64,000 nucleotides of DNA. Origin: Halichondria panicea (taxonomy: Eukaryota > Porifera > Demospongiae > Suberitida > Halichondriidae). The translations under genes and the position numbers were made by a program. The DNA is taken from NCBI RefSeq assembly GCF_963675165.1, contig NC_087377.1, positions 12,882,632-12,946,631 of the forward strand, given 5' to 3'. This document shows positions 14,939-63,459 of this stretch, in pieces. The notes beneath the pieces were generated by a model. That model had not been told where the DNA came from. It saw nothing but the letters and a program-made list of their open reading frames with translations, and ran no database searches. How positions within the stretch are numbered: position 1 is the stretch's first letter; each line of letters starts with the position of its first letter.

Positions 14939-16853
14939 ATGGTGCACTTCAGAAGTAATCATTGTATACTTGTAAGTGTAGCTGTGTCATTGCTGAGCCA
15001 AGGTATATAGTCTTAGGTTTATGAATGTTTAGTGCATGATTAGTGTCAATGTTTAGTCCTGCAGGCTACCCCAGGACTAGTGCTGCCAGTAGAGAGAACC
15101 ACTGGACTGGGTTGTATACCAGAGGGCAGGACTGTCAGCTATGTGTGCACTGTCACTGATCCACTAGATCCTCCTGTGGCTAGTACTGTTTGGCAGGGAA
15201 CTGCCCTCAACTGTCCTTCAGCAAGTGATACAACAAACAATCGCATCATTCTATCTCATAATCAATTTCAGTCTGGAGGCAATGCTGGTGTTTGTGGTGG
15301 CTTGTCTGCAATGAGTATTGGATTTAGTAGAAATGAATACACCTCAAGATTGATTCTAACAGCCTCTAATGAGTTGAATGGAATGACTGTTATATGTAGT
15401 TTGAGTGGAATTTTTATAGCTGGAAATGACACCGTAATAGTTGGAGGTGAGTAACATAATTATGACTATCTGACTGTGCCATAACTTTGCCATTCCAAAC
15501 AGCTTCTTCCCTTCCCCCTCTAAGTGTCATGGTTGAGGTCACTTCTTCTTCGTCCTTCACCTTCAGTTGGATTCCACCATCTGATACCAGCAATGTGGGA
15601 GGATATCTGTTTAACGTGACTGGAGAGGATTGTGGTTGTGTAAGTATGAAAACTAGTGCTGACACTACCAATGTCCTGTGTTCTGATTGGACGGTCAGTG
15701 GTCAGACCTGCTCCTTTGAAGTGAGGGCCATATCAGAAGACTGTGGGTTCACCAGTGATTCTGTTGCACTAGCCATCTCACTGCGCGGTGAGTTCATACA
15801 CACAGCTATACATGCATGCACTATATAAAGAGGTAATCGTTCATCTTGCAGTACCATCCAGTCCAACTGGGCTACAAGTGATGTCAATGTACAATCAGTA
15901 TGGAAGCACAGAGTATATTGAAGTGGATGGGTGTGGTGAGTTGAATCAGTGACATTCTCACACTATAACTATAATTATGTCCTTGAGTTTTCCCCATAAA
16001 TTTCGATTTACTGTCACGTGTAATCTATAGCGGGTACATATAATTATACTTGGTGCCTAAAACTTTTCCGGTGAATCTATGTGATGCCGGTTCCAAATTA
16101 ACTTCATTCACCATTGCTTACCAAATACACCTGCTATAATGTAATCCACGAAAAGCGTATAGTTTACTTTGTTTGTATGGCATAAGAGCTATGAAACCGT
16201 TAACTTTGACACATCCTGTCTAGAATTGATTACTGTGACCAACGGTGCATGGTGTGTGAAAGTACTATAACTGGCTTATCGCATAATATGATAAGGCATT
16301 TTGTTAGTACGGTACTATAATATAGATTTTCCCTTCTTGTAAGTAAATATATTGCTCACATCTTAAGCAGTCCACCCCTCAGGGACCCTGAGATGCGAGC
16401 AAGAAACTACACCAGGTGAATGCTATACGGCTATACAAACTGTGACCTGTTGATTGTGCTTATACTAAAGAATGCTAGCTATACAAACTGTGACCTATTG
16501 ATTGTGCATGCATGCCTATACTAACTATACAAACTGTGAGATTGTGCCTATAATAACTAAAGATAACATTTACTTATTAAATGGATGTGAATGTTCTTGC
16601 AACTATAGAAAACAATCTTTCTTTTGGAGTATCTATTACTGTTGCTGTTATTTTGACATTCCTGGCTCTAGGAATCTCCATTGGTGTTTTCATTGTGTTG
16701 GGAGTGAACAAGTGGAGGAGGTCTGAAAATATAACTCTGCAAACTGAAACTGAAATGATACCACCTCCTGTGATATACGAAGAACCTAATGACATTAAAC
16801 CTGACCCCTTCACTCAGGAGAACGTTGCTTATGAGCTAGTAAAACCCAACTGA
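14939..16853 (+). CDS. Ig/FN3 single-pass receptor with ITIM-like tail (locus 1)
   Basis: Model: 14939-14971, 15065-15446, 15503-15787, 15852-15935 and 16609-16853; 1029 nt, so 342 residues in one frame. Exon 2 is an Ig-like domain (GRTVSYVC ... LNGMTVICSLSG). Exons 3-4 are FN3-like (SSFTFSWIPPSDTSNVGGYL ... CSFEVRAIS, then a short second start VPSSPTGLQVM). The last exon gives a membrane helix (ITVAVILTFLALGISIGVFI), a basic stop-transfer NKWRR and a tail with VIYEEP and, 14 residues on, VAYELV. The latter fits the ITIM consensus [SIVL]xYxx[IVL]. The first exon is short and not obviously a signal peptide; it is supported because the same ATG and donor are kept in the duplicate at 8190. The tail spacing equals that of the array receptors B, E and G, although the ectodomain is quite different. 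Confidence 0.76.
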
Positions 16854-17209
16854 CTATAATTTATTATTATTTTAGTGAAAGAAGTAATTAGCGGTGTTAC
16901 ATACAGTCATGTAGATCAGATCATGACACTTTTGGTAATTAGTTTGTTCTCTGCAAAATAGGTTCTTATACTAGTAAGAAATGATTCTATAGCAACTGCT
17001 TGTTTAAATAGCTGCTATAGCAATAATCAAAATAAGGTGCATGGTGACTGTTGACAATAGAAGTGAATGCTATCATATACCATATTGAATCAACAGTACT
17101 ATTTCAATTAAGCTGTATATTTGAGTTCTCCATAAGCCTGGTTTGACTGCAACTCAATGTTTTGCTTTGCCATCTGGGGTGGATAATCATTGTTGTACAC
17201 AAATCTCTT
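16854..17209. other. Convergent 3' intergenic region
   Basis: Lies between the stop codons of the plus-strand locus 1 and the minus-strand locus 2. It must hold both polyadenylation sites. No other feature seen. Confidence 0.4.
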
Positions 17210-19348
17210 TTAAGTTAATTTTCTCACTTGTCCATAAGCTTCATTAGACACCACTTGAATGTCTTGTGTTCTTTGTGCTGTTACTAGACCGACTTCCTCG
17301 TATACTGGACCAGCTGCAACTTTTGGAACTTTATTGTCTGACAGCTGGGTGCTACCTATTGAACCAAGTCATAAAGAGTCAGTTTTTAATAACATGAAAC
17401 AACCTTTTGCCCTCACTTTTTGTTTTCTTTACTAAGACTATGAACACCACAACAACCAGTACCACCACCACAAACAGACTGCCAAGAGAACCACCAGCTA
17501 TAGCCCCAACGTTATCAGCCAGTAGAGCTAAGACGGAAATCAACAACACATGTATAATCACCACAATGATACAATGCTATTATACACAGCTTAGTATATA
17601 CGTAATTGTGCATGTAGTATAATTTTTATTGACTTTAAAAAGGCTATTAAAAGTACTCACGGACAGTTGTTGGGGACACACACATAATGGTGCTAGGCTC
17701 AAGGTTCCAGACTCCAGCATTAGTGCAAATGATGGTGTTGGGTACAGTCAGTGAGAGTCCATTGTCACACAGCACTGTTCCCTCCAACACTGTCTCGTTC
17801 AACCTCTCATAGTTCACTATAGTAGTGCCATTGGATGGGTCCTCAGGGACAGTGCAGTTGACTGTGTAGATATAGCATGCGCAGTTAATTATATAACAGC
17901 ATGCATTATACCTGGCAAAGTCCTGCACACCACAGCACTTGGATTTTAGGATCCCACACTCCATTTTGTCTATCTCTTGTGCAAGTTGCAGTCAGAACAC
18001 CCTCGGGAAAGTGTTCATCATTGCACTGATAGATGACCTGTGACCCCTCTGTGTAAGACTGACCACTAGTGTTCACACTATACCCATAGAGGGAGACCCG
18101 GGAACTGGGCAGGTCACTGGGGGTTCTGTAAGAGAAATACGGCTTGATCTATATGCAAACTTAATGAAATTCTCAAGGTTAGGACTCCATCGTCCATCAT
18201 TGCCACAGATAGAGGTTACTATCTGATTATCTTCAGAACAAGTGAAGGTAAGTGTGTAGCCCACAGTCGGTACACTGGGTATCTGGATGTTGAAATTCTC
18301 AGGGTTAGGACTCCATCGTCCATCATTGCCACAGATAGAGGTTACTATCTGATTATCTTCAGAACAAGTGAAGGTAAGTGTGTAGCCCACAGTCGGTACA
18401 CTGGGTATCTGGATGTTTATCACTCCACTAGCAGCAGAGAGGGAGGATGGACAGGAAACTGAGTATTATAGAAGTATTATAGTTGTGGGGACAGTAATTT
18501 AACATTTGCTTGCCTATGGAAGGTATAGTGAACCACATTGAAGCAATACTCATTCCAGCACAGTTGACAGCTCTGACAGTCACATCGTAGGGTGTGTTAT
18601 AGGAGACAATGATCTGTGCGGAGGTTGTCTCCATGGTGACTGATGACACAGAGAGAAGTGTTGGGGATATGATGAGGACATAGCTCACAGACACACCACC
18701 AGTAGAGGAGGGAGGGTCCCAGTCCAGAGTGATATTAGAGGAACTGGGTCGGTTCAGAGTAGATGAAATTGTTGGGTTCAAGGGAGGGGAGGGGAGATCT
18801 GTGTAAAATGTGTGTCTATTTATTATATATAAAAATTTTCCTCCAATCACAATAAAAATTTCGTACCTGCCACAACAATGGGTATTGGGCCTTTTCCTGC
18901 TCCTCTTATCACTAGACAGTTCACCATAGCTCCACCCAGCGCTGTCACCATGGTAAGGGTGGTGAGTGTTGATATTATCATCCCTCCATTGTGTCCGGAG
19001 TAATCAGCCCGGAACATGAACCCATCAGAGCCAATCTCCCTAGTTACAATACTGTTACTCACTAACCCAGATGCACTACCGTAGGCACATTCAGTCCAGG
19101 TGGTGGGGTTACTGTCCATTGAAGATCCACACCCATAGTACCAGGCAGAGTACAGGTAAAGGTGACAATTTCATTAGGACAAATGGAACTTGGTGTCAGT
19201 GTGGCTATAACAATTAAAGCAGTGATAATTAATAGTCTATATACTGAAACAATCTATAAATTAGTGTTATACCTTATACCTGCACTGAAAGAAGAGAGCA
19301 ATACACTAGAACTGCCCTCAAGCGATCCAAGCAGATTTCATTTGTCAT
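17210..19348 (-). CDS. Ig-FN3-sushi receptor with twin-tyrosine tail (locus 2)
   Basis: Exons read on the minus strand: signal-like start 19348-19280 (MTNEICLDRL ... VYCSLLSVQ), Ig 19204-18867, FN3 18798-18514, sushi exon(s) 18458 to about 18160 (contains a duplicated 126-base unit), sushi 18125-17912, sushi 17861-17661 (CTVPEDPSNG ... GVWNLEPSTIMC), membrane helix 17527-17404 (SLFVVVVLVVVVFIVLVKK), and tail 17355-17210. The tail reads GPVYEEVGLV ... VVSNEAYGQV, nearly the same signature as the array receptors. The Ig exon needs one frame change between about 19075 and 19150: the N-terminal half (FTCTLPGTMGVDLQWTV) and the C-terminal half (SASGLVSNSIVTREIG) are in different frames. The junction from exon 1 to the Ig exon is also out of phase in my model. 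So it is either a recent pseudogene, a sequencing error, or my first exons are wrong. The FN3 exon uses a GC donor (ATAG|GCAAGC). Confidence 0.62.
18171..18422 (-). repeat. 126-base tandem duplication within sushi exon
   Basis: Two copies, 18171-18296 and 18297-18422, differ by about one base (Pro/Leu in SPNPENF against SPNLENF). Each encodes the Cys-bearing core TVGYTLTFTCSEDNQIV ... CGNDGRWSP of a sushi repeat and keeps the reading frame (42 codons). Near-identity shows a very recent event. Confidence 0.93.
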
Positions 19349-24976: not shown

Positions 24977-26834
24977 TTATTGCTTTGGGGAGGTATCATG
25001 GTGTGACCACCTACGTCGAGTGATAACGATGACGATTATGACCATACTTATGAAAGACAAGAAAACAGCTATGCCACCAATTATAGCCACTGCTACAACT
25101 GCAACTGGGAGTGTTGATTCTCCTCCACCACCACCTGCATGTATGGAGAAAATTGATGAATTCAATTGAGTAAGTTGACTGTACCTCCTAATGTTGTCAA
25201 ATTGAATTCTCTAGTGAGTGGAGATACGACGTCATTTGATTGGTTGCTGGCCAAAACAACTCTAGTGGTGTAGGTGTAGAGGAGTCCAGCAGTGATGTTG
25301 GTGAAGGTCACCGTGATTTGGTTGGTTGTGGAGGGGAAAGGGAGGATGATTGGGCCAGAGTATGGGGGAGAGAGAGTGGAGACAATGAGCAGGTCACTGG
25401 GAGGGTAGCCAGTGAAGGGGAGGGACAAGCGGACTGTGTAACTAGTGTCAGATGGTGTGACATCTTGTATGGTAATCATTGTATCTGGAACTGAAACATA
25501 CAGCACAGTAATCAATATTCATTAAAAATGCCACAGTCTTACTGGTCACGGTGGAGTTAATAGCAGAGCAGTCCTTGTTTCTAAACATTACACACACTGT
25601 GTAAGCATCTCCAGGAGATTGGTCTGAGAAATCAATTGCAACTGAACTTCCATTAAATAATGTGGTAGGAACACAATCCTCTCCACTCGTTATGTATCCA
25701 AACATTCGAATGGGTGCAATATCAATTGAAATTTCCTGGAATCAAAAATTATTAATTTACGAAAACAACAAAAGCAATAACACTACCTGGAATACTATTT
25801 GGAGCTTCAGTGCTTCATTTTGGATTATGAAGGAGGCGGATAATGCTGGAGTTCCCAAGTCTAAATGTGACACCACATTAATGAATGAGCTCAAGTATGC
25901 AGTCACTTTACACACATACCTGGATTGATCACAGTGATATTTGAGGTGTCAGATGATAAGAGTCCATTGATTGTGAATGGTGTCACAGTCACTGTCTGAG
26001 TCTCACTGTAAGGGAGGCTCTCTCCAGCTAATGATAGAGATGTATTGGTGGTATTGTACACTGTTCCATTCAGGTTGATAGTGTATCCAGTAACACATCT
26101 CTGGTATGGTGCGTCCAGTGGGTCCCACTCCAGAACAGGACATAAACTATTAGTTCTCAGATTTGCCACCCAGGCAGTTACAGGCAGTGCATTTATATCT
26201 GTATAGCAGTTCACACAAATAGGTAGGCTGCAGCTAGAAATTGTTACTCACCTATCACATTCAGTGTGGTGTTGCCAACTAGTGGCGACGAAAAAAGACC
26301 ACCAGCAAAGCATTCAATCAGAGTACCGTTAAGTACCTCAGTGACAGGTATTTGAATAGTTGAGCTCACTGTAGGGCCAGTGTTGTTGCTGACCATGGTG
26401 ATGGTGAATTGACCACACGTGTATTCTGCAAAACCAGTAGTGTGGCTCACTAAACCATTGCAAGACATGGCTCCACTAATTTCCCATCGACTTTGTTCGC
26501 CATTAACGTTGTCATGGCTACAGGTTAGAGAGACCAACTCTCCAGGACAAACTGTTAGCATTTCTCTTTCATCAGTAATATTTGACAGAAATGCTGAGTT
26601 TCCATACACAGTGTCTAGACAATAGTAAACAAAGCAACTCATTGTTCAGTATAATTATGCACCCTACTCTTTGTCTATACAACTTACCCAGTTGATTTGT
26701 GGCTAGCAGTATCCATGAAGCTAGGACCAACGGGATAATCTACAGAATTAGAAGAGAAGCATTGATTTCTTTTTTGTTACAACATACAGGTATTCAAAGA
26801 TTTTGGATCTTACCTTGCAACTTGACACACTCAT
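24977..26834 (-). CDS. Array receptor A (Ig-FN3-beta-FN3-TM, short divergent tail)
   Basis: Exons, minus strand: 26834-26814, 26739-26688, 26614-26252, 25860-25787 after 26198-25920, 25735-25543, 25490-25185 and 25134-24977; 1446 nt, 481 residues. The start MSVSSCK joined to IIPLVLASWILLA is a signal peptide. The Ig exon has Cys in VCPGELVSLTC and TLIECFAG. Next come FN3 (LCPVLEWDPLDAPYQRCVTG ... ), a cysteine-bearing beta domain (EDCVPTTLFNGSSVA ... VCVMFRNKDC) and a second FN3. The last exon has a Gly-rich linker, a helix (VAVVAVAIIGGIAVFLSFIS) and a short basic tail RRRWSHHDTSPKQ. The tail lacks the paired tyrosines of B, E and G. The 5' half is almost identical to gene B; the last two exons are not. 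Downstream blocks at 24867-24826 and 24758-24657 could supply another tail. Confidence 0.77.
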
Positions 26835-26940
26835 GATCTATACAGATCTCACTACAATTATCTCTGTTGTCTTCAAACACTGCCTGCATTAATTGGACTA
26901 GATCTATCTTTGACAATCCATACCCATTCAACATCTTCAG

Positions 26941-29224: not shown

Positions 29225-29755
29225 TTAACAGGGCCAATCAATTCAGCTGCTTGTATAGAAGCAAGTTGGAGCCTGTAGCATGAGTAATGTATGTAGAGGG
29301 CATGGACTGCATGCACTTTCAATCGAATTTGTACACCTGCATGTCTTGGCTCCAAAAAACATGTGTGCATGGTTCGTTCACTGTTACGAGGATAGGTAAT
29401 ACAGTTTCTCATACTTGCCACTGAGGCACTGGACAGTACTCTGATTGAATGCTTTTCTGGTGGTCTTACATAGTCTCCACAAGTTGGCAACTCAATGTGA
29501 TAAGTCAGTGAAACAACAAGATTTCATGCTAGCTACATCATAATTATTTTTTTCAACTGTATACAGATCTAAATGTGTCTACTGTAACTGACTGGATGGC
29601 AAATCTGAGAACCAACAGTTTATGTCCTGTTCTGGAGTTGGACCCAGTGGCAATTACCAGAGAGATGTGTCGCTGACTACTCCGTCAACCAATTATACAA
29701 TACAACAAACACATCTCTATCATTAGCTGGAGAGAGTCTCCCTTACCATGAGAAT

Positions 29756-29853
29756 TAGCCTCGTCCCAGGCCAATTTTTTTTTAATAGAACGAAGTTGAA
29801 AAATACGCGACCTAGCGTTCAATTGGAGACGGATCGGCCTGGGGTCGAGGCTA
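29756..29853. mobile_element. 98-base MULE-like MITE in pseudogene C1
   Basis: Ends tagcctcgtcccaggcc and ggcctggggtcgaggcta, flanked by catgagaat (29747-29755) and catgagtat (29854-29862). The sister copy C2 has the unoccupied site catgagaat at 43026-43034. Confidence 0.88.
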
Positions 29854-29862
29854 CATGAGTAT

Positions 29863-29920
29863 TAGCCTCGATTCAAGGCCGATTAAAATACGTATTTTAA
29901 TCGGCCTTGAATCGAGGCTA
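29863..29920. mobile_element. 58-base MULE-like MITE beside the previous one
   Basis: A perfect hairpin tagcctcgattcaaggccga / complement, flanked by catgagtat at 29854-29862 and 29921-29929. It inserted into the target duplication of the neighbouring element, or the pair arose by local re-insertion. Confidence 0.88.
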
Positions 29921-30124
29921 CATGAGTATAAGACAGTGACTGTGACACCATTCACACAAAATGCACTCTTATTTCCTGACACCTCAAATGTCACGGTGAT
30001 CAATATATAGAGGTGCATGTAATGCGACAGCATTATTCAGTCAATTTGAGTGTCACATTATTCAGATATAGAGACTCCAGCATTATCCGCCTCCTTCACC
30101 ATCACCATCTATAATAATATATAT

Positions 30125-33072: not shown

Positions 33073-33102
33073 TAGTGCAACGTTGCATGATAAACACAAC
33101 TA

Positions 33103-33288: not shown

Positions 33289-33790
33289 TATTCATTATGC
33301 ATTAATTCTCAAATGAAAAACATGTACAATTAATGTATATACACTCATGCAGAATCTGTGCGATCCTTCTCTACTGGTGAAGCAATGGCAGTCAGTGTGG
33401 CAGCTACATTCACTATCTCCATAGCGATTGGACTCTTGCTGGGGATGTCTCTAATTATGCATTATGTAATAATATTATGTAATTATAATTATATGCATTA
33501 TGTATTACAGGAATAGGGGTTGCTACACAGTAAGACAGCGACAGGAAGAAAGCATTCAACCCACTGTGCCAAGTGGTCCTGTTTACGAAGAAGTTACTCC
33601 TATCCAAGAACAAATTGAGCTGAAACTGAATGAAGCATAATTAAACGGACCATTATAATTAACAGTACTAGCCCAGTACTACATGTCTGAAAGCCTAAAT
33701 TCGTGTATTGTGTACCTGCATAAAAAGCAGAGAATGAATGAATTATGAAGCTGTTTGGTAAAGATCATTAATTAATGTCATAATTGACTA

Positions 33791-36500: not shown

Positions 36501-36608
36501 TTTATTGGCCCGGTATAAGATAAGATTGTGGTCAAGGGCCTTTAGATTTTGGTGTTTATTGGCCCGGTAGAAGATAAGATTGTGGTCAAGGGCCTTTAGA
36601 TTTTGGTG
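36501..36608. repeat. 54-base tandem duplication
   Basis: Two units starting tttattggcccggta, differing at one base, inside the D locus. E and F have one unit. Confidence 0.9.
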
Positions 36609-36627
36609 GCTGGAATTACGTAATAAC

Positions 36628-42539: not shown

Positions 42540-44203
42540 ATCAATTCAGCTGCTTGTATAGAAGCAAGTTAGAGCCTGTGGCATGAGTAATGTATGTAGA
42601 GGGCATGGACTGCATGCACTTTCAATCGAATTTGTACACCTGTCTTGGCTCCAAAAAACATGTGTGGTTCGTTCACTATTACGAGGATAGGTAATACAGT
42701 TTCTCATACTTGCCACTGAGGCACTGGACAATACTCTGATTGAATGCTTTTCTGGTGGTCTTACATAGTCTCCACAAGTTGGCAACACCACACTCAATGT
42801 GATAAGTCAGTGAAACAACAAGTTTCATGCTAGCTACACCATAATAATTTTTTGCAACTGTATACAGATCTAAATGTGTCTACTGTAACTGACTGGATGG
42901 TAAATCGTAATAAGTATATATTTTTCTCAGTAGATCTACCAGCAGCCTTTATGAATTGGGCATCATATAGCAGGTGTACTATACTATAAACATCTCTATC
43001 ATTAGCTGGAGAGAGTCTCCCTTACCATGAGAATAAGACAGTGACTGTGACACCATTCACACGAAATGCACTCTTATTTCCTGACACCTCAAATGTCACG
43101 GTGATCAATATATAGAGGCCCGGGGGGGTGCATGTAATGCGACAGCATTATTCAGTCAATTTGAGTGTCACATTATTCAGATATAGGGACTCCAGCATTA
43201 TCCGCCTCCTTCACCATCTATAATTATACTAAAGCTGCAAATAATGGTCCATGCAGGTATGTATGTATTAGTTATTGCATGCATGGCTATGAGTGCCACA
43301 AACTGTTTATTGGCCCGTTAGTATGGTCAAGGGTCTTTAGCCCGAGATCATTATCTAGCGTTATTTTAGAGACAAATCAGCCTGGGAACGAGGCTACGTA
43401 TGCTAAACCATGCATTGTCATTTTTCTAGGCAACATTGTAGGGTATATAATTAACAGAACTGCCAATTAAAAGTGAAAACTATCTTGTCAATTGTAGGGT
43501 ATTTTGCTCTGACCTGCCTCAAATCGAAATTGAAAATGGTGTCTTGGAATATAATATGGAGGAAGATGCGTTTAATGCTACTAAGACCGAACGGAACTGT
43601 TTCAACATACACATGCATAATAGATACAGACTGGATGGAAATATATACCACAAGGATTTGTGACACTGGAAATTGGACGGGCACAGAACCTGCATGTATG
43701 CATACATTTTATGCTATGTATACATGTATGATTGTATACGTATACATGTACATGTATAGTTATTATTTGGCCTGACCAACAGGAGCAGTTCCGCTGGCCC
43801 TGCAAGCGGTTCACACAAAAGTTATTACAGTAACACTATCGCTTGTAGGGTCGGCTGTACATGCATGTACATCTGTAGAGGATGTGAACATTTCAATACA
43901 CCTGTATAATGCTCATATAACTGCTCTCTGTACATTATGGAGTGGGACCAACATCAAAAAGAAATTTATAAGATGCTCTACATCATCAGTGATATAATGC
44001 AGCCAGGTTAACAAGCAGTAAAGTCTCTATAATTATAGTATATGCATGTGTTACAGGTATAACTTCTTCATTGCAGCCACTGTTATAGTGCATGTGCCCT
44101 ACAGTACTATAGGGTTGCATGGTGGCCGCTAAATTCATATTGACACAAATATGACCCCACTTACAGGCTCACCTGCGGATTCAGTGTGAAGCAGGTGCAA
44201 CGC

Positions 44204-45167: not shown

Positions 45168-45473
45168 TACAATTAATGTATGCATGTACGCATGCAGAAT
45201 CTGTGCGGTCCCTCTCTATTGGTGAAGCAGTGGCAGCCAGTGTGGCAGCTACATTCACTATCTCCATAGCGATTGGACTCTTGCTGGGGATGTCTCTAAT
45301 TATGCATTATGTAATTATAATTATATGCATTATGTATTACAGGAATAGGGGTTGCTACACAGTATAAGACAGCGACAGGAAGAAAGCATTCAACCCACTG
45401 TGCCAAGTGGTCCTGTTTACGAAGAAGTTACTCCTATCCAAGAACAAATTGAGCTGAAACTGAATGAAGCATA

Positions 45474-47051
45474 ATTATACGGACCATTATAATTAACAGT
45501 ACTAGCCCAGTACTACATGTCTGAAAGCCTAAATTCGTGTATTGTGTACCTGCATAAAAAGAATGAGTTATGAAGCTGTTTGGTAAAGATCATTAACGTC
45601 ATAATTGACTATAATTATAGTTGGGTGAGTTGCATGTGATATGGTTCTATAAAGTTGATCTCATGGCACCCCAAATCAACAAGCAGACAACAATTTTACT
45701 GAACACATTTATCACAATTAAATTGGACAATGTTTATAACTGCCCGTATACATTGAATGACGATAAGACCAGATAGGATCATTATAGACATCTGCGATCG
45801 TCGACGTATTTGACCAGCAATATCGTTATGAACGAATACCCCTTTCAGGACATCCAAACCAAACTCTCAGAAGTACTAACAGACCCGCCAGGCCCTACTT
45901 GGCACACCAATATGTTAGACATGCCGTTTCCTATATGCTTGTTTTGAGTTGAGCTAGATCGACAAGTCTATCAGGAGTACATGTGTACACACCTATAGTA
46001 ACACTGTGTTTCCCGTTCTGTTTTAGTCATTCTCAATGATATTTTCTGAAAACTAATAATAATACAATCGATTTGATTCTCATTATAATTATTTGTAAGA
46101 TGATAAATTATGCTGAGCTTAAAATAAGGAATTTTTGTATTCCGTATTTAGTGAGTAAGGGTAAACGTTCGGGGTTTTCGTTGATTAAGCACATACACCG
46201 CGAACATACTAATATCGCATGCATGCATGCACGTCAAAAGGCTATAGTCCAAGGATCTGCAAATTAAAGGTCTTTCCGCAAAAATTTATACCCTCGAAAT
46301 AATTATCTGTTTTTCATAAAACAGTGAAGCCTGCATGGCTGCCTATCGTGCATGATCGCCATATAAACAGGCCATCCTCAATATACAGTCGGGTTAATGA
46401 GCACTAAAGTCTCCATAAAATTATAGTGTGTGTGTTAGCAGGTCACCTCTTTATTACAGCAACTGTTGGTGTGCCCAAGGGTTACATGGTGGCTGCTATA
46501 ACATCATGACACAAGTATGACCCCGTGCGGATTCACCTGCGGTTTGAAGCAGGTGCAATACAGTCACACTGCATGATGAGAAACATAACTGCTTTGCATT
46601 GGACATTGTGGTGTTTCTGTAGGAGAAATTGAATACCTGTCAATTGCAAATGAAAGTAGTCAAAAGAGCTAGAGGAATACAGTTTACGGCCCTGATGTAT
46701 TATGTTTTTTGTTGCACACATTATTCACAAACAAAATCCAAAAATGTGATAATTATAGACAAAATAAGACGTAGACATAAACACAGCACACACAATACAT
46801 ATGATTCTAAGTGTTGTCTTTGCTGACTTTATTAACTGATCCATAATTAAATATTCACCTTCACCATTTTTGCCATGAGAACGTCGACTCATTATGCAAA
46901 ACTTAATGTATTCAAAATAGACATTGATGCTATTATTCCCTATTATGAAAGTATGGACACACAATGGGTGTGGTTGTATTTAGTTTAAGCTTTGCACATG
47001 TCATTTTTTGGATAAAGTCTGTAAATGTAGCTATAGAACAGTTCATAGGAG
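45474..47051. other. Intergenic, conserved between D, E and F
   Basis: Matches 33641-35360 and 53216-55004. Short frames such as the one at 46629 are shared but carry no domain and look non-coding. The block just before the ATG (gggtgtggttgtatttagtt... at about 46970) is kept upstream of D, E and F and may include the promoter. Confidence 0.5.
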
Positions 47052-50002
47052 ATGAGTATGCCAAGTTGCAGCAAGGTAATATTATTTCTGCATGTATAAT
47101 TATATACTCTCATGAATATTAATTGATTGCTTCATCTCTACATGGTATTTTATAGATTATACAATTGGTCCTGACTTCATGGGTACTGCTAGCAAATCAA
47201 CTGGGCAAGTACTTACAGTAGTATACCTGCTATAGATGCCAAATTCATTTAAGGCTTCTGGTATAGATCTATATACTGAGAAAAGTATTACTATCCAGAA
47301 GCAGAGCAAATCCCTTTGGCTTTCATTACTGTTTTTAATAAAAATTGTCCAGATGCTGTGAATGAACATTCTGTTGATGAAGGTGTGCAAACAGTTTGCC
47401 CTGGAGGGTTGGTTTCGCTAATTTGCATTCATGACAATGTTGCTGGTCAACAAACTCACTGGATTGTCAGTGGCTCTCAGCCTTGTGATGAATTTGTAAG
47501 CCACTTCACTGATTCGACTGAAGACATGTGTGGTTCGTTCACTATTACGAGGATAGGTAATACAGTTTCTACATTATACTCAACTATTCAAATACCTGCC
47601 ACTGAAGCACTGGACGGTACTCTGATTGAATGTTTTTCTGGTGGTCTTACATCGTCTCCACAAGTTGGCAACACCACACTGAATGTGATAAGTCAGTGAA
47701 ACAAGAAGATTTCATGCTAGCCACACCATATCAACTTTATATATATAATTATATACTTTCAACTGTTACAGATCTAACTGTGTCTACTGTAACTGACTGG
47801 ATGGCTAACCTGACAGCCAACAGTTTATGTCCTGTTCTGGAGTGGGACCCAGTGGACGCACCATACCAGAGATGTGTCATCGGCTACACTATCAACCTGA
47901 ATGGAACAGTGTACAATACCACAAACACATCTCTATCATTAGCTGGAGAGAGCCTCTCTTACTGTGAGACTCAGACAGTGACTGTGACACCACTCACACT
48001 CAATGGACTCTTATCGCCAGATACCTCAAATATCACTGAGATCAATAGAGGTGCCTGTAATGCGACAGCATTATTGTTCAATTTGGGTGTCACATTATTC
48101 AGATTTGGGGACTCCAGCATTATCTGCCTCCTTCACCATCCATAATGAAGTGCTACTGAAGCTGCAAATAATGGTCCAGGTATGTAGCTATTACATGGCT
48201 ATGAGTGCCACAAGCTGTTTATTGGCCCGGTAGAAGATTGTGGTCAAGGGCCTCTAGCCTGAGAGCATTATCTACTACAAGGACCAATACTGCTTGTCAG
48301 TGGCGGATCCAGACATGCAGGTTCCATGGGTTCCATGGAATCAACACACTGGAGATCAACTTACTAGCTATATAGCTAGCAACTAAGCTTGCATGAATGA
48401 TCGTGATCTGTATAATAGAGTTACGCAATTTACGTGGGCTCTCTAATGTGCATGCTCATTGCTTAGGAAAAGTGATGACCTTTTTTTTTTGTAAATTTTA
48501 GCTGTTTTGTAACCCCCCTCTCAAATTCTTAGATACGTCACAGCTGGTTGCATTTTGACCTCTGAGATCAAATAAAACAGGGTGCCAATATCTACCATAA
48601 TTATGGCATGCACAGTTCAGGTCGTGAACTGTGCCAGTAAGGCGCATATGTCACAACTACTTGTGGCATGCACGAATTGCCATGTAATAACTACTTCGTT
48701 GCCTTGAAAACCAGCATAAAAACCACTTGTTGCATATAGATATGACAGATCTCTACTGATTTTGGTGGCTGGAATTACATAATAACTGCATAGAAACCAG
48801 CATATGCTGCATAGCAAACTTCCCACAGGGACCACAAAAACTTACAAGAGCGTGTCCCTGTATAAAGTAGTAGTTGACAGTTTGGGTGTGAGGAGGTTTC
48901 TCTCTCCAGAGGGCGATTTTATGCGTCAATAGGCAACATAAATATGTAATATTAATTTTGTTGCCATATAATTATTATTGTCCTCTCACAACAGGAAATT
49001 TCAATTGATATTGCACCCATTCGATTATTCGGATACATAACGAGTGGAGAAAATTGTGTTCCTACCAAATCATTTAATGGAAGTTCAGTTGCAATCGATT
49101 TTTCAGACCAATCTCCTGGAGATGCTTACACAGTGTGTGTGATGTTCAGAAACAAGGAATGCTCTGTGTCTGCAATCAATTCCATTACTGTGACTGGTAA
49201 AATGCATAATGCTGGCATATCATTAAATTTATGATTTCGTATCTTTCAGTTCCAGCTACAATGATTACCGTACAAGAAGTTACACCATCGGATACTAACT
49301 ACACGGTTCGTTTGTCCCTCCCCTTCACCAGCTACCCTCCCGGTGACCTGCTCATTATCTCCACCCTCTCTCCCCCTCACTCGGACCCAATCATCCTCCC
49401 CTTTCCCTACACAACCAACCAAGTTACCGTGACTCTCACTGAACTCACTGCTGGAGTCCTCTACACCTACACCATTAGAGTTGTTCTGGCCAGCAACAAA
49501 TCAAATGACGTCGTATCTCCAATCACTGGAGAATTCAGTTTGACAACATTAGGAGATATTACATGGAGGCGAATAACTGGTAGATAGTGAAACAATTGCA
49601 AATAGTATTGTTTACCTCAACAGTATAGTGAATAAGCTAGAGTTTACTAGTAGTTAGCCTGCTATGATAATAATACTCATTACTGTAACTCATGCATTAA
49701 TTCTCAAATGAAAAACATCTATATACACACATGCAGAACCTGTGCGGTCCCTCTCTACTGGTGAAGCAGTGGCAGTCAGTGTGGCAGCTACATTCACTAT
49801 CTCCATAGCGATTGGACTCCTGCTGGGGATGTCTGTAATGTACTGCATTATGTACTACAGGAATAAGGGACACTATGCAGTAAGACAGCGACAGGAGGAA
49901 AGCATTCAACCCACTGTGCCAAGTGGTCCTGTTTACGAAGAAGTTACTCCTATCCAAGAACGAATTGAGCTGAAACCGAATGAAGCATACAGACCAATAT
50001 AA
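47052..50002 (+). CDS. Array receptor E (Ig-FN3-beta-FN3-TM, donor-altered)
   Basis: Exons 47052-47075, 47156-47204, 47353-47691, 47772-48050, 48103-48179, 48995-49196, 49250-49555 and 49737-50002; 1542 nt in frame. Domains are as in B: signal (MSMPSCSK, IIQLVLTSWVLLA), Ig (TVCPGGLVSLIC ... TLIECFSGG), FN3, beta domain, second FN3, helix, tail GPVYEEV ... NEAYRPI. The second exon uses a GC donor (CTGG|GCAAGT). The donor after the second FN3 has changed from GAG|GT to GAG|AT. Read-through would add DITWRRITGR and stop, giving a soluble protein. A GT 24 bases downstream (ACTG|GTAGAT) keeps phase and would add eight residues before the helix. So E may be soluble, membrane-bound or both. The second tail motif is YRPI instead of YGPL. 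Confidence 0.75.
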
Positions 50003-51239: not shown

Positions 51240-53215
51240 TGACACAGAAGCTATACATGCACTATCGCTCGTAGGGTCGGCTGTACATGTAGTATATCTG
51301 TAGAGGATGTGAACATTTCAATACACCTGTATAATGCTCATAAGAACTGCTGTACATGCATTATGGACTGGGACCAACACCAAAAATAAATTTATAAGAG
51401 ACCCTTCAACTTATATAATTGCTGCTGTTTACTGCATGTTGTCAGTAATAAATACTATAACAGTGAAACCACAATAAAATGCTCTGTTTATTAATTATGA
51501 GCTAGCTAAGGACTCTCTGCATGTGAATAAGGACACTTAACGCTTAGAAATAGAAGCACATAGAAATTACTAAAATCAATTTTACCCAAAACATGTTGCA
51601 TTTTATGCAGCAACATTACTATTAGACAACAACCAAGCTACACACAACCTCTCCATTAATTGATACACCCACTGCATTAGGTACGACCGAGTATACCGTA
51701 TTATAATTATTATAGCTGGTATAATTATTTTTTGGGGGGCAAAGGCAAAACATTCGTGATTGAGCAATATTTAGTCACTTTGTGGATAATATTTTTGTGA
51801 GGTTGCTGCTTGCACTACTGCAGGTAAAGGTAGGCAAGGTCGCTTCATTCATGGGTAAAAATTAATAATTATATTCGTGCAGAGTTCCAATCACGAAAAC
51901 CAAGAATATTTTGTTTCCCGGAAATGACCAGCAAAAATATACGGTACCTCTCTGAGGTGAACATTAGGTTTATTGGTTTCAAGCGCCAATGCATTGATTA
52001 TAATAGCCTATAAGGATGAAAAAATGTATACTGTATAGAAGTGGTGCATGCATAGTTTTCATGCAAATGTCACCAAAAAATGATCATCTGAATCTATAGT
52101 CACACATTTTGCAATTGTGTAAAAACTATACTCATCACTTTTACAGTACTTTTTTTGCCAAATTGTGACAGGCCTGCATGCTAAGAACATAATAACAGGT
52201 ATTTAGTTTTGATGTGATAGCAGAAATCGTTTAACGTTTAATACCAAGCAGTTAGCGTAATTTAACAATCTGTTGAGAGATTCAACACTAACTAATCTTT
52301 TTGCTGAGTATAATAATAGTCATTAATATGCCTGGTGTGGATCAATCAAGGAGAGATCAATAATAACTAAGCATCATTCGGCTGACAAAAATTTTCACGA
52401 GTTTTCACGATAATATAAATAATATCTCAAATAATCCTGAGTGCGGTATAGGGGCAAGATTTTGAGCATGAACAATGAACTTCCCAGACAAAATGACCGT
52501 AAGTTAATATCTGCATGGTAATGAAAAACAGAAGCCTGGCTGCCTATCGTGGTCGCCATATAAACAGGCCATCCTCTATATAATACAGCCAGAATAACAA
52601 GCAGTAAAGTCTCCATAATTATAGTATGTGTTACAGGTCACCTCTTCTTTGCAGCCACTGTTAGTGTGCCCTAGGGTTGCATGGTGGCCGCTAAATTCAT
52701 ATTGACACAAATATGACCCCATACAGGCTCACCTGCGGATTGTGAAGCAGGTGCAACGCTGCATGAGAAACACAACTACAGTGGAACCCATCAGGCTATA
52801 ACGGACACCTTTGGGGAACAATGTTTTGGCCTTTATACAGAGGTGGCCTTTGTTGAGAGGTTGTTTTGTACACGAACTGTTCATTTGGGACCTGGGTGCC
52901 TGGCCAATGTATATACACTCATGCAGAATCTGTGCGGTCCCTCTCTACTGGTGAAGCAATGGCAGTCAGTGTGGCAGCTACATTCACTATTTCCATATAG
53001 CGATTGGACTCTTGCTGGGGATGTCTCTAATTATGCATTATGTAATAATAATTATTATGTAATTATGCATTATGTATTACAGGAATAGGGGTTGCTACAC
53101 AGTAAGACAGCGACAGGAAGAAAGCATTCAACCCACTGTGCCAAGTGGTCCTGTTTACGAAGAAGTTACTCCTATCCAAGAACGAATTGAGCTGAAACTG
53201 AATGAAGCATAATTA
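51240..53215 (+). pseudogene. Array pseudogene C3 (3' part only)
   Basis: Corresponds to 31440-33640 of C1. Ig, FN3 and sushi exons are missing; only the intron sequence and the membrane/tail exon (52928-53215) remain. The tail keeps the GPVYEEV motif and the same NEA-stop ending. The mariner-type MITE is 3'-truncated. Confidence 0.8.
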
Positions 53216-53368
53216 TACGGACCATTATAATTAACAGTACTAACCCAGTACTACATGTCTGAAAGCCTAAATTCGTGTATTGTGTACCTGCATAAAAGGC
53301 AGAGAATGAATGTAAGCTGTTTTGAATTGTTTGGTAAAGATCATTAATTAACGTCATAAAATTGACTA

Positions 53369-55004: not shown

Positions 55005-58000
55005 ATGAGTATGCCAAGTTGCAGCAAGGTAATATATTTCTGCATGTATAATTATATACTCTCTTGAGATTGCTTCATCTCTACATGGTATTTTATAGAT
55101 TATACAATTGGTCCTGACTTCATGGGTACTGCTAGCAAATCAACTGGGTAAGTACTTACAGTAGTATACCTGCTATAGATGCCAGATTCATTTAAGGCTT
55201 CTGGTATAGATCTATATGTAAATATACTGAGAAAAGTATTACTATCCAGAAGCAGAGCAAATCTCTTCGGCTTTTACTATCTGTTTTTAATAAATTGTCC
55301 AGATGCCGTGAATGAACATTCTGTTGATGAAGGTGTGCAAACAGTTTGCCCTGGAGAGTTGGTTTCGCTAATTTGCATTCATGACAATGTTGCTGGTCAA
55401 CTAACTCGCTGGATTGTCAGTGGCTCTCAGCCGTGTGATGAATTTGTGGCCCACTTCACTGATTCGACTGAAGACATGTGTGGTTTGTTCACTATTACGA
55501 GGATAGGTAATACAGTTTCTACATTATACTCAACTATTCAAATACCTGTCACTGAGGCACTGCATGGATGGTACTCTAATTGAATGTTTTTTTGGTGGTC
55601 TTACATCGTCTCCACAAGTTGGCAACACCACACTGAATGTGATAAGTCAGTGAAACAACAAGATTTCATGCTAGCCACACCATATCAACTTTATATATAT
55701 ACTTTCAACTGTTACAGATCTAACTGTGTCTACTGTAACTGACTGGATGGCTAACCTGAGAACCAACAGTTTATGTCCTGTTCTGGAGTGGGACCCAGTG
55801 GACCAACCTTACCAGAGATGTGTCATCGGCTACACTATCAACCTGAATGGAACAGTGTACAATACCACAAACACATCTCTATCATTAGCTGGAGAGAGCC
55901 TCTCTTACTGTGAGACTCACACAGTGACTGTGACACCACTCACAATCAATGGACTCTTATCGCCAGATACCTCAAATATCACTGAGATCAATAGAGGTGC
56001 CTGTAATGCGACAGCATTATTGTTCAATTTGGGTGTCACATTATTCAGATTTTGGGACTCCAGCATTATCTGCCTCCTTCACCATCCATAATGAAGTGCT
56101 ACTGAAGCTGCAAATAATGGTCCAGGTATGTAGCTATTACATGGCTATGAGTGCCACAAGCTGTTTATTGGCATGGTAGAAGATTGTGGTCAAGGGCCTC
56201 TAGCCTGAGAGCATTATCTACTACAAGGACCAATACTGCTTGTCAGTGGCGGATCTAGACATGCAGGTTCCATGGGTTCCATGGAATCAACACACTGGAG
56301 ATCAACTTACTAGCTATAGCTAGCAACTAAGCTTGCATGAATGATCGTGATCTGTATAATAGAGTTACGCAATTTACGTGGGCTCTCTAATGCGCATGCT
56401 CATTGCTTAGGAAAAGTGATGACCTTTTTTTTGTAAATTTTAGCTGTTTTGTAACCCCCCTCTCAAATTCTTAGATACGTCACAGCTGGTTGCATTTTGA
56501 CCTCTGAGATCAAATAAAACAGGGTGCCAATATCTGCCATAATTATGGCATGCACAGTTCAGGTGGTGAACTGTGCCAGTATGGCGCATATGTCACAACT
56601 ACTTGTGGCATGCACGAATTGCCATGTAAAAACTACTTCATTGCCTTGAAAACCAGCATAAAAACCACTTGTTGCATATAGATATGACAAATCTCTACTG
56701 ATTTTGGTGGCTGGAATTACGTAATAACTGCATAGAAACCAGCATATGCTGCATAGCAAACTTCCCACAGGGACCACAAAAACTTACAAGAGCGTGTCCC
56801 TGTATAAAAGTAGTAGTTGACAGTTTGGGTGAGGGGGTTTCTCTCTCCAGAGGGCGATTTTATGTGTCAATAATATGTAATATTAATTTTGTTGCCATAT
56901 AATTATTATTGTCCTCACAATAGGAAATTTCAATTGATACTGCACCCATTCGAATGTTCGGATACATAACGAGTGGAGAAAATTGTGTTCCTACCAAATC
57001 GTTTAATGGAAGTTCAGTTGCAATCGATTTCTCAGACCAATCTCCTGGAGATGCTTACACAGTGTGTGTGATGTTCAGAAACAAGGAATGCTATGTGTCT
57101 GCAATCAATTCCATTACTGTGACTGGTAAAATGCATAATGCTGGTATGTCATTAAATTTATGATTTCGTATCTTTCAGTTCCAGCTACAGTAATTACTGT
57201 ACAAGAAGTTACACCATCGGATACTAACTACACGGTTCGTTTGTCCCTCCCCTTCACCAGCTACCCTCCCGGTGACCTGTTCATTGTCTCCACCCTCTCT
57301 CCCCCTCACTCGGACCCAAACACCCTCACCTTCCCCTCCAATACCAACCAAGTCATGGTGACCTTCACTGAACTCACTGCTGGAGTCCTCTACACCTACA
57401 CCATTAGAGTTGTTCTGGCCAGCAACAAATCAAATGACGTCGTATCTCCAGTCACTGGAGAATTCAGTTTGACAACATTAGGAGGTATTACATGGAGGCG
57501 AATAACTGGTAGATAGTGAAACAATTGCAAATAGTATTGTTTACTTCAACAGTATAATGAATAAGCTAGACGTGTTTACTAGTAGTTGTACTATGGTTGC
57601 ACCAAAGATCAAAGGCTTCAGTTGTAGTTTATACTACTTATACAACCTGTCTGACCACAGCCATGGTATTATGGCAGTTATACCCTAGTGTATAACTGCC
57701 ATATACCATGGCTGTGGTCAAACTACATGTACAGCTAGAACTGAATACAGTATCCCACCTTTGCAACAAAATTGACACACTGTTTCAATTAAAACAATGA
57801 CACACTACTCAATTCAATCAATATTAGCAATATTAGAGTTAGAGAGAATTCAATACAAAACAGACTACTATACTAATGATTTTAGTCAACATAAAAAGAG
57901 CCAAGTTCGAGCGATGAATAGTTCCAAAAAGGAGGCAAATTTGGAAGAACTCCGTGATCGTGAATCGAACGATACTGGTTTGTTTGTGTTGCTTTTTTTC

Positions 58001-58918
58001 AACTTTCAACATTGGTTGTCACAACCTGCTTATTACATTGCTGCATGGGACCAGGAGCAGTAAGAAGGGTCCAGACTGCCAAGTGTTTCTCAGACTAAAG
58101 AGACTGCACTGCACTGGGCCAGTACAGTAGGCTTGTGGAATGATATTTTGGGGTACATTTGCACTCTTTGTAGACAAGTAGCACCAGTGTACTTTCTTGA
58201 AGTGCCTTCTATAAAGATGCAGAAACACAGCCTTCACAATTGCTTGCTTGAATCATAGACGCTTGATTGAATCAGCCATCGCTTTTTAAAAAAATAGCAA
58301 ATTCATTGCATAGCTATAGCAACAGTGACGTCAAACAGTAGTTATAAGCATATTCATTGAAGAAGCATGACAGGAAGTAGCTAAACATAGTAGTACAGTT
58401 CTAAACATAGTACAAGCCAGTTAAACTATGGCCTCTCGTGGTATATTTGCTTTACACGCTCGAGTAATCAGATAAACCAGCTCGGCTGCGCCTCGTGGTT
58501 TATCAGATTACTCTCGCGTGTAAATCAAATATACCACTCGAGGCCATTGCTTAGCCCGCTATGATATATATACTCATTACTGTAACTCATGCATTAATTC
58601 TCAAATGAAAAACATGTATAATACACTCATGCAGAGTACACTCATGCAGAATCTGTGCGGTCCCTCTCTACTGGTGAAGCAGTGGCAGTCAGTGTGGCAG
58701 CTACATTCATTATTTCCATAGCGGTTGGAATCCTGTTGGGGATGTCTGTAATGTACTGCATTATGTATTTCAGGAATAGGGGACGCTACGCAGTAAGACA
58801 GCATCAGGAGGAAAGCATTCAACCCACTGTGCCAAGTGGTCCTGTTTATGAAGAGGTTACTCCTATCCAAGATGGAATTGAGCTGAAACTGAATGAAGCA
58901 TACGGACCGTTATCCTAG
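55005..58918 (+). pseudogene. Array receptor F, one 4-base frameshift in Ig exon
   Basis: Exons 55005-55028, 55099-55147, 55303-55645, 55718-55996, 56049-56125, 56924-57125, 57179-57484 and 58650-58918. All junctions are canonical or as in E. The only obvious lesion is CATG inserted at 55563-55566 in the Ig exon, which gives ALHGWYSN-stop. The other exons total a whole number of codons once those four bases are discounted, and their protein is close to E. The donor after the second FN3 is intact (GAG|GTATTA). The tail is GPVYEEV ... NEAYGPL. A 0.97-kb insertion lies in the last intron, and two acceptors 15 bases apart precede the last exon. It could be a very recent null allele. Confidence 0.82.
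57590..58552. other. Insertion in last intron of F, with two hairpins
   Basis: Sequence between gtttactagtagttg and cttagcccgctatg that E lacks (E reads straight across at about 49655). It includes near-perfect hairpins at 57652-57720 (tgaccacagccatggta arms) and 58428-58547 (atggcctctcgtggtatat arms). A frame of 88 codons at 57797 has no recognisable domain. Probably one or more nested non-autonomous elements. Confidence 0.6.
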
Positions 58919-61341: not shown

Positions 61342-63459
61342 TTATAATGGTCCGTATGCTTCATTCGGTTTCAGCTCAATTTGTTCTTGGATAGGAGTAA
61401 CTTCTTCGTAAACAGGACCACTTGGTGCAGTGGGTTGAATGCTTTCTTCTTGTCGCTGTCTTACTGCGTAGTGTCCCCTATTCCTGTAGTACATAATGCA
61501 GTACATTAGAGACATCCCCAGCAAGAGTCCAATCGCTATGGAAATAGTGAATGTAGCTGCCATAATGACTGCCACTGCTTCACCAGTAGAGAGGGACTGC
61601 ACAGATTCTGCATGAGTGTTGATTGTACATGTTTTTCATTTGAGCATGAGTTACAGTGTAATGAATATATCATAGTAGGCTAACTACGAGTAAAAACACG
61701 TAGCTTATTCACTATACTGTTGAAGTAAACAATATTATTTCCGATTGTTTCACTATCTACCAGTTATTCGCCTCCATGTATAGCATAATCTCCTAATACA
61801 TGTAGAGCCAATATGAAATTTCCAGTGACTGGAAAAACGACATCATTTGATTGGTTGCTGGCCAGAATAATTCTAATTGTGTAGGTGTAGAAGACTCCAG
61901 CAGTGATGTCGATGAAGATCACTGTGATTTGGTTGGTTGTGTACGGGAAGGGGAGGGTAATTGGGTCCGAATGAGGGGGGGAGAGGGTGGAGACAATGAG
62001 CAGGTCACTGGGAGGGTAGTCGATGAAGGGGAGAGACAAACGTATCGTATAACTAGAACCAGATGGCCTAACTTCTTGTACGGTAATCATCGTAGCTGGA
62101 ACTGAAAGATACAAAATCATGAATTATGCCAGCATATGCAGTTTTACCAGTCACAGTAGTGGAATTGATTGCAGAGCATTCCTTGTTTCTGAACATCACA
62201 CACACTGTGTAAGTATCTCCAGGAGATTGGTCTGAGAAATCGATTGCAACTGAACTTCCATTAAATGATGTGGTAGGAACACAATTTTCTCCGCTCGTTA
62301 TGTATCCGAACATTCGAATGGGTGCAGTATCAATTGAAATTTCCTGGAATCAAAATTGTTAATTTACCAAGAAAACATCAAAAACTATATAACACTATGT
62401 ACCTGGAATTTTATTTTGAGCTTCAGTGCTTCATTTTGGATTAAGAAGGAGGTGGATAATGCTGGAGTCCCCAAGTCTAAATGTGACACCACATTAATGA
62501 GCTCCAAGTACGCAGTCACATTACACACATACCTGGATTCATCAACGTGATATTTGAGGTATCTGGCAATAAGAGTCCATTCAGTGTGAGTGGTGTCACA
62601 GTCACTGTTGTCTCACAATAAGAGAGGCTCTCTCCAGCTATTGATAGAGATGTGTTGGTGGTATTGTACACTGTTCCATTCAGGTTGACAGTGTAGCCGG
62701 TGACACATTTCTGGTAAGGTTGGTCCAGTGGGTCCCACTCCAGAATAGGACATAAACTGTTGGTTCTCAGATTAGCCATCCAGTTAGTTAAAGAAGTCAT
62801 ATCTGTACAAAAGAAAATGATCGGTTAGCTATCGTAAAATCTGATCACATTACTTACTTAACACATTGAGAGTGGTGTTACCAACTTGTGGAGAAGACCC
62901 ACTGCTACCAGCGAGGCACGTCACCAGAGTACTGTTCAATGTTTCAGTGGCAGGTATCTGAATAGTTGAGCTCAGTGTAGACCCAGAGTTATCACTGATC
63001 ATGGTGATAGTGAATGGACCACAGACGTCTTCTTGCAACCCGGCATCATGGGGAACCAATGCAACGCAAGACATCGGACCGCTGACTTGCCAGCGAGTTA
63101 GCCCACCAGCAACATCGTTATGAGTGCAAGTGAGAGAGACCAACTCTCCAGGACACACTGTCAGTAGATCTTCCTCTTTTGTGATGTCAGCAGCCAGAGC
63201 AACTACATGTATATAGAATGATTAAGATTATTCATCACAAAAATACGGTGAACAATGGTTGTACAACACAACACTATATCTGGTCTATGAATTCTAGCTA
63301 CAAAACTTGCACTTTACTAAATAACTTACAGTAATCTAGATCTAGCTGCAGCAAAAGTGCCCATGACAACAGTACAATCTAGTGATGTTAAAGAAAGTCA
63401 TTAACATTCTATCCAAGTAACTTTTAACTCACAACTTTATTTTTCAGCTTGGTAGACAT
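61342..63459 (-). CDS. Array receptor G (Ig-FN3-beta-FN3-TM, donor-altered)
   Basis: Exons, minus strand: 63459-63433 (MSTKLKNKV), 63378-63330 (IVLLSWALLLQL, signal), 63202-62858 (Ig; VCPGELVSLTC, TLVTCLAGS), 62802-62533 (FN3), 62476-62403, 62343-62148 (beta domain), 62101-61790 (second FN3) and 61607-61342 (helix, tail GPVYEEV ... NEAYGPL). This is the most diverged Ig of the array but keeps every exon boundary and 1539 nt in frame. The donor after the second FN3 reads GAG|ATTATG instead of GAG|GT. Read-through ends after DYAIHGGE, giving a soluble form, and no in-phase nearby GT is evident. The membrane exon is still intact, so loss is recent or another donor is used. Confidence 0.78.

Follow-up and report, generated by a model that had tools for sequence, protein, structure and literature searches.

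A multi-megabase array of probable paired immunoreceptor-type genes on chromosome 1 of the sponge Halichondria panicea

A stretch of 64,000 nucleotides of the genome of the sponge Halichondria panicea (the window, C1:12,882,632-12,946,631 on chromosome 1; genome of 131.46 Mb in 39 contigs) probably belongs to an array of paired immunoreceptor-type genes that extends over several megabases and would form a recognition repertoire. The genes encode single-pass receptors composed of immunoglobulin (Ig), fibronectin type III (FN3) and complement control protein (CCP, or sushi) domains. The array combines this architecture with a high copy number, a shared tail, exon mosaics and two types of tail on near-identical ectodomains. 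An earlier note, made from the letters of the window, had described a cluster of such receptors; this observation is confirmed, and its extent had been understated. From the sequences, a recognition repertoire is likely and a role in allorecognition plausible. To our knowledge, the genes behind self/non-self discrimination in sponges are not settled. The entire analysis rests on one H. panicea assembly.

Three ectodomain classes (A, B and C) are found in the window, each followed by a transmembrane (TM) helix and a tyrosine-motif tail. The search of the genome for the tail signature, as the earlier note had proposed, revealed the chromosome 1 array. Three tail searches and 100 places of a codon motif give 214 distinct short-tail loci on C1 between 11.25 and 14.93 Mb, relics included. 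With the class-A tail, 150 of the 291 candidates were scored, of which 149 are located on C1 and one on C7 (C7:3600062-3600310, the sole related short tail off chromosome 1 among the matches listed). With the class-C tail, 150 of 325 candidates were scored; 149 are on C1 and 147 of the 150 have no internal stop. In the third search, all 150 scored candidates (out of 289) are on C1. The exact codon motif GPVYEEV occurs 218 times genome-wide, the first 100 of these 218 places being all on C1, whereas the backwards pattern has 0 occurrences. This control and the E-values exclude chance as the origin of the shared tails. Scaling from the motif, the number of tail loci can be extrapolated to approximately 255. 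The core of the array (11.43-12.60 Mb) contains 108 loci on the + strand and 6 on the - strand, approximately 6 kb apart (median spacing of 5.9 kb, 113 loci). The tail loci are organized in 34 strand runs, against a mean of 71 after shuffling, and 0 of 10,000 shuffles reach 34.

The tails of classes A and C are homologous (44% identity, best E 5e-16), and the class-C copy of the window bears a third, longer version of the A/C tail (17353-17111). The search with the class-B tail returned 24 matches counting itself, all on C1 between 8.75 and 12.90 Mb (8.75-11.34 Mb for those other than the window's own), and no class-A or class-C tail among them. In view of this result, the common tail that the earlier note gave to all three classes holds for A and C, and class B has only the order of the motifs in common with them. 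Class A is a small branch. Among the 150 of 291 candidates scored, tails with at least 72% identity are confined to 11.389-11.401 and 12.849-12.987 Mb, and class-A exon sets are present at C1 11.325-11.401 and 12.84-12.99 Mb in the DNA examined. In a second receptor region, C1:8.73-10.95 Mb, class-B tails accompany Ig/FN3 exons akin to those of class A. FN3 exons are also densely clustered in the same genome at C4:4.38-4.43 Mb, C3:6.68-6.72 Mb and C8:6.57-6.66 Mb. A profile of three full-length models recovered 32 proteins at E <= 0.001, all 32 from H. panicea and none from another named species (7995 candidates scored, word-limited search), and searches restricted to open-licence papers listed no description of this receptor family.

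Three annotated proteins, P0154, P0156 and P0168, combine a class-C ectodomain (without the Ig part in P0168) with a different TM helix and a tail of 335-342 residues. P0154 shares with the short-tail protein P0140 96.7% identity in Ig, 97.8% in FN3 and 91.5% in CCP1. The Ig of P0156 is 100% identical to that of P0153, while its CCP1 and CCP2 are 100% identical to those of P0143. Near-identical ectodomains on two signalling tails, the hallmark of the paired receptors whose parallel the earlier note had guessed, are therefore found in P0154/P0140 and in P0156 with P0153 and P0143. The gene of P0154, which was read in the DNA, has its exons in order on the - strand within approximately 5.5 kb, so there is no obvious fusion by the annotation. 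Each of the three long tails contains three motifs resembling the immunoreceptor tyrosine-based inhibition motif (ITIM), against none in the 21 short tails. Shuffled long tails contain on average 0.46-0.52 such motifs and reach three in 44-64 of 5000 cases. Compared with PDB sequences, the long-tail profile matches FADD with an E of 0.018, and FADD represents 10 of the 13 matches at E up to 1; this weakly suggests a death-like region in the long tail.

In the DNA, 45 long-tail clusters were built from 103 of the 113 exon matches (10 were dropped). Thirty of the 45 have fewer than 3 exon matches and many carry stops. The short tail closest to a cluster, at a distance of up to 38 kb, is on the opposite strand for 41 of the 45 clusters and for 14 of the 15 clusters with at least 3 exons; Fisher p values are 8.5e-6 and 0.009, respectively, with the clusters treated as independent, which duplicates are not. 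Where the nearest short tail is on the - strand (10 clusters), 8 clusters are on the + strand. We interpret these short- and long-tail genes of opposed strands and near-identical ectodomains as a paired-receptor design.

Copies in the window were detected by exon-level tblastn, in-silico splicing through GT-AG junctions and self-comparison. The window contains nine class-A copies or relics, one class-B gene and one class-B relic, and one damaged class-C gene, in agreement with the at least eleven copies or relics announced by the earlier note. Class A, with the exon order Ig, FN1, small exon, FN2, FN3, TM plus tail, is located between 25.2 and 63.2 kb; the count of nine merges the pieces at 29.4 and 33.5 kb into one and those at 42.7 and 45.3 kb into another.

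25182..26612, - strand: class-A copy A26 with Ig, FN1, FN2 and FN3; no TM/tail exon found (tblastn, self-comparison)
29371..29995, + strand: class-A relic, Ig/FN1 fragments with a stop (tblastn)
33346..33655, + strand: TM/tail relic with a stop (tblastn)
35697..37466, + strand: partial class-A copy with Ig, FN1, half of FN2 and a weak tail fragment (tblastn)
39080..40963, - strand: class-A copy A40, open from Ig to stop (splicing); its third FN3-like exon is predicted to fold as FN3
42654..43124, + strand: class-A relic, Ig/FN1 fragments with stops (tblastn)
45191..45489, + strand: TM/tail relic with stops (tblastn)
47353..50002, + strand: class-A copy A47, open from Ig to stop (splicing); its Ig exon is predicted to be V-type
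52920..53227, + strand: TM/tail relic with a stop (tblastn)
55305..58918, + strand: class-A copy A55, every exon present, the frame of the Ig exon broken once near 55565 (tblastn)
61342..63209, - strand: class-A copy A63, every exon present; GT donor after FN3 altered; 3' half nearly identical to that of the gene C1:12866819-12868653

A40 (40963-40601, 40547-40275, 40224-40151, 40099-39904, 39855-39544, 39348-39080) and A47 (47353-47691, 47772-48050, 48103-48179, 48995-49196, 49250-49579, 49737-50002) each splice six exons into an open frame from the Ig exon to the stop with GT-AG junctions. The GT donor after FN3 is present in A26, A40 and A55 and changed in A63, and A47 splices via a downstream donor after FN3. 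The changed donor of A63 (window 61780-61815) is shared with the gene C1:12866819-12868653, within their near-identical 3' half; both may be secreted forms or dying copies. No convincing candidate for a class-A signal-peptide exon was found within 2.5 kb upstream (0.7-0.8 kb for A63). Concerning the domains of class A, Pfam reports nothing above cut-off. Folds were predicted for one class-A exon each, the Ig exon and the third FN3-like exon (FN3 alone). The predicted Ig fold contains the strands C' and C'' of a V-set and matches V domains; the predicted beta sandwich of the third FN3-like exon matches FN3 structures (best E 1.8e-4), the matches being mostly FN3-based entries with some others. 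The V and FN3 folds of class A are thus predictions, and the assignment of Ig and FN3 domains to this class by the earlier note holds at the level of these two predicted folds, without a Pfam match above cut-off.

Classes B and C are located upstream in the window, the class-B gene spanning 14.9-16.85 kb.

8190..8422, + strand: class-B 5' relic, signal peptide and start of the Ig-like exon (tblastn)
14939..15001, + strand: class-B signal-peptide exon MVHFRSNHCILVSVAVSLLSQ (signal-peptide search)
15044..15454, + strand: class-B Ig-like exon, without Pfam match (tblastn)
15466..15828, + strand: class-B FN3/Ig-like exon (Pfam RIMBP2-Ig E 7e-5, fn3 E 0.018, both below cut-off)
16581..16853, + strand: class-B TM helix and tail VIYEEP..NVAYELVKPN (tail search)
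17111..19238, - strand: class C, Ig-FN3-CCP-CCP-CCP-TM-tail, damaged (tblastn; fn3 E 1e-4, below cut-off; Sushi E 6e-5, above cut-off)

The region of the class-B relic (8109-8409) is 87% identical to 14858-15147. The class-C gene has its TM helix at 17531-17415 and its tail, AAGPVYEEV..SNEAYGQ..SNQAYGEL, at 17353-17111; it holds an internally repeated CCP piece. The earlier note placed a signal peptide in the common receptor layout; class B has one in the window, class C has one outside the window, and none was found for class A. Other statements of that note are borne out. Self-comparison reveals direct and inverted duplicates (for instance 45616-49655 and 53575-57587, 94% over 4.1 kb), and the class-A copies other than A40 and A47 are broken in various ways and to various degrees, so that intact, freshly broken and long-dead copies stand together. 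The absence of an ordinary gene from 24.9 kb on agrees with the other open reading frames tested beyond 24.8 kb, none of which (0 of 10) has a Pfam match at E 0.01. An imperfect palindrome (window 26940-27258, 74% identical to its own reverse complement) adjoins a block of 1.3 kb (27257-28530) that is 97% identical to 41280-42532.

Three other open reading frames were observed in the first part of the window. The single-exon kinase frame at 13123-14061 (+ strand) has 1488 homologues at E <= 0.001 among 2774 candidates and belongs to another large family adjoining the receptor array. An open DDE transposase of 335 codons at 21428-22435 (- strand; Pfam DDE_3, E 3.5e-28) suggests recent activity by its intact frame. 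The frame at 3745-4407 (+ strand) ends with a PHD finger (E 2e-8), and its upstream part, which we take by eye to resemble a protease, precedes it.

The tips of the receptors are diverse and their tails uniform. In class A, the mean pairwise synonymous divergence (dS, computed on pairs with dS above 0.05) is 0.64 for the Ig exon, 0.21 for FN1, 0.20 for FN2, 0.24 for FN3 and 0.13 for TM/tail. The tails are thus similar at synonymous sites too, beyond protein conservation, which indicates a recent homogenisation. Identities of Ig and tail are uncorrelated over 12 genes. Across 17 class-C proteins, identity rises from 42.6% in Ig to 78.5% in the tail, with 52-67% for the stalk domains and 58% for TM between these values. 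The boundary between the uniform and diverse halves is displayed directly by A63 and the gene C1:12,866,819-12,868,653. Their DNA is 98-100% identical from inside FN2 (window 62300) to past the tail (61201), introns included. The identity is 89-90% immediately before the FN2 boundary and 82-94% in FN1, drops to 57-68% over the Ig exon with its end, and at 37-43% reaches the level of unalignable sequence in the upstream 0.7 kb. Variability of the Ig exon, scored on nine non-redundant sequences of 17, is 1.33 bits in the loop matching the complementarity-determining region CDR1 and 1.51 bits in that matching CDR2; pooled CDR-like positions reach 1.18 against 0.65 for the rest (permutation 0.0019; 2/100 rotations). 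The public protein set is clustered at 90% and is unable to measure polymorphism between samples. Among the 18 public tail proteins compared, five (contigs 352009 and 544166) match the assembly with 0 or 1 mismatch, and four tail exons among P0121-P0138, on a public contig of 62,425 bases, match it at 83-93%. This divergent contig may come from another individual or species, and hints at variation between samples or species.

From these observations a mechanism can be proposed. Each gene would produce a type I membrane protein with a V-like Ig tip, a stalk of FN3 and/or CCP domains, one helix and a tyrosine-based tail. The V domain would bind ligands, and the short tail (YEEV, YGPL/V), once phosphorylated, would recruit SH2 proteins such as Src-family kinases. 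The YEEV motif suits the SH2 domains of this family, and SH2 domains are abundant in the H. panicea genome (71 exon matches). ITIM motifs recruit SH2 phosphatases and death domains recruit death or inflammatory adaptors; the long ITIM-like/death-like tail could thus produce another output, which may be opposing or terminal. Duplication in tandem and in inverted orientation, combined with conversion of the 3' half, would keep the output modules uniform and leave the Ig exons and the upstream regions different. The resulting repertoire would set varied recognition tips on a shared signalling base and lead to two kinds of consequence; turnover would diversify its input half, and the homogenised output half would keep it functional.

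Several points weigh against a paired recognition repertoire. The ratio of nonsynonymous to synonymous divergence (dN/dS) of class A is 0.30-0.45 in every domain, with dN above dS in 0 to 2 pairs per domain, and no sign of positive selection on the Ig exon was found, dN/dS being < 1 throughout. As the Ig exon is also the most divergent at synonymous sites, its divergence is accounted for by age or a lack of conversion, with no need for selection. The CDR3-like loop is not prominent (0.78 bits), and the C' strand (1.28 bits) and the C''-D turn (1.19 bits) are as variable as the CDR-like loops; the variable patch is therefore the C-C'-C'' side and not all three loops. The Pfam Death match of P0156 and P0168 is below cut-off (19.7 bits vs 22.6), and the long tail of P0154 has no Pfam Death match at E 0.01. 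P0156 and the short-tail partners are known as annotated models alone. Finally, some duplicated blocks (11.39 vs 12.98 Mb) may be retained haplotypes rather than paralogues.

The most likely role, as far as the sequences indicate, is a discrimination of self from non-self or of microbe from symbiont. An innate repertoire directed at microbes and symbionts, with activating and inhibitory paired receptors under arms races, is quite possible, short of probable. The paired tails on near-identical ectodomains and the large family with relics agree with it. In the parts of the H. panicea immune-gene study available, receptor transcripts are mostly individual-specific and sushi- and immunoglobulin-domain genes are among the responders to lipopolysaccharide; the receptor classes that the study screened are nevertheless different ones, and those parts make no mention of this family (PMC8242945). 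A fusion/rejection (allorecognition) locus working like Hydractinia Alr or Botryllus fuhc is possible and somewhat doubtful. The Ig receptor cluster on a single chromosome, the tyrosine tails, the V-like tip and the paired tail types resemble Botryllus FcoR as partly described in PMC11067881, and sponges distinguish self from non-self grafts with high specificity according to excerpts of PMC5450542. However, the portion of the text of an Amphimedon graft study consulted has 0 occurrences of immunoglobulin, fibronectin, sushi, SRCR or receptor. Moreover, dN/dS is below 1, and the number of family members exceeds that of the described Alr set several times over. The clustered-receptor reading of the earlier note is thus strongly supported and extended, while the recognition function stays inferred and allorecognition has no direct support. 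An adhesion or cell-sorting code inside one individual, for which clustered protocadherins are the comparison, is unlikely: the constant tail with a variable tip agrees with it and FN3/Ig/CCP stalks are common in adhesion proteins, but adhesion proteins do not usually have an ITIM-like and death-like tail, and the high turnover and the relics argue for changing recognition targets. That the copy number is largely an assembly artefact, with haplotypes laid end to end, is very unlikely despite several distant blocks with 92-99.9% identity (e.g. 11.39 vs 12.98 Mb), since three-copy tails exist (11803690, 12037904 and 13230445 score equally), in a coarse and noisy test no more than 5 of the 214 tail loci line up collinearly at one offset, and the kinase locus of the window and tail loci from 12.86 to 12.99 Mb fit one public contig of 352,009 bases.

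A bolder form of the paired recognition repertoire, which we put forward tentatively, is a sponge allorecognition or individuality complex of >200 V-Ig/FN3/CCP receptors, with tip exons diversified and shuffled onto two homogenised outputs, comparable to natural killer (NK) cell/KIR receptors with a built-in kill signal. If true, an early-branching animal would possess an NK/KIR-like paired recognition with a short tail of Src-SH2 type and a long tail with ITIM and death domain, and the paired immunoreceptor design would be either very old or repeatedly evolved. The chromosomally defined candidate would make the question of self/non-self in sponges directly testable by resequencing of individuals and grafts. 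It would also represent a clean natural example of conversion that makes one gene half uniform and leaves the other diverse.

Among known systems, the closest in its apparent way of working is the FcoR/fester family of the fuhc locus of Botryllus schlosseri. In the sections of the sources available, FcoR contains V-type Ig, sushi, C2-type Ig, TM and tails with ITIM or a hemi-immunoreceptor tyrosine-based activation motif (hemITAM; PMC11067881, PMC12065747). The partial text of PMC12065747 indicates type I proteins with V-type Ig and sushi domains and ITIM or single-tyrosine tails, in multigene, clustered and paired families, as in the sponge. Unlike FcoR, the sponge array has FN3 in place of C2-type Ig, three CCPs and >200 loci, and its long tail may contain a death-like region. 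The FcoR domain order (signal, V-type Ig, sushi, two C2 Ig, TM, tyrosine-motif tail) is not found; its positions are filled by FN3 and three CCPs in class C and by FN3-like domains in class A. Because the domain recipe differs, the array is not assigned to FcoR/fester. In the sponge, pairing is by shared ectodomain, whereas in FcoR/fester, as far as these sources describe it, neighbouring genes of two families are paired. Hydractinia Alr, in the part of PMC11067881 available, is likewise composed of clustered single-pass Ig receptors with many pseudogenes. The sponge array contains clustered single-pass receptors with a V-like Ig tip, as a predicted fold, and differs from Alr by its FN3/CCP stalk and paired tails; the likeness to Alr is one of layout. 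Alr tips are also V-like. The fold and sequence match lists show neither C2-type Ig domains nor Alr relatives, either of which may still exist.

The vertebrate paired receptors KIR, LILR, SIRP and CD300 display near-identical ectodomains on two opposing tail types and turnover of their clusters, and the sponge array resembles them in its turnover and in its near-identical ectodomains on two tail types, whose outputs may be opposing. Their activating partners use charged TM residues and adaptors with ITAM, whereas in the sponge the short tail itself bears two tyrosine motifs and the long tail has a putative death-like region. The SRCR and NLR repertoires of sponges are similarly large receptor families with sushi/FN3 companions, according to the excerpts available (PMC8242945, PMC10855680, PMC12909245). 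In contrast to these, the array is Ig-tipped and clustered on chromosome 1, and Pfam reported no SRCR or NACHT domain in the receptor proteins scanned. The H. panicea study, in the text available, describes individual-specific receptor expression, with a screen of Toll-like receptors (TLR), NOD-like receptors (NLR), C-type lectin domains (CTLD), SRCR and G-protein-coupled receptors (GPCR), and that text does not contain "allorecognition" or "histocompatib" (PMC8242945). Its count of cytokine receptors, with kinase, immunoglobulin or FN3 domains as the defining features, came to almost 200 and might include some genes of the chromosome 1 array (PMC8242945).

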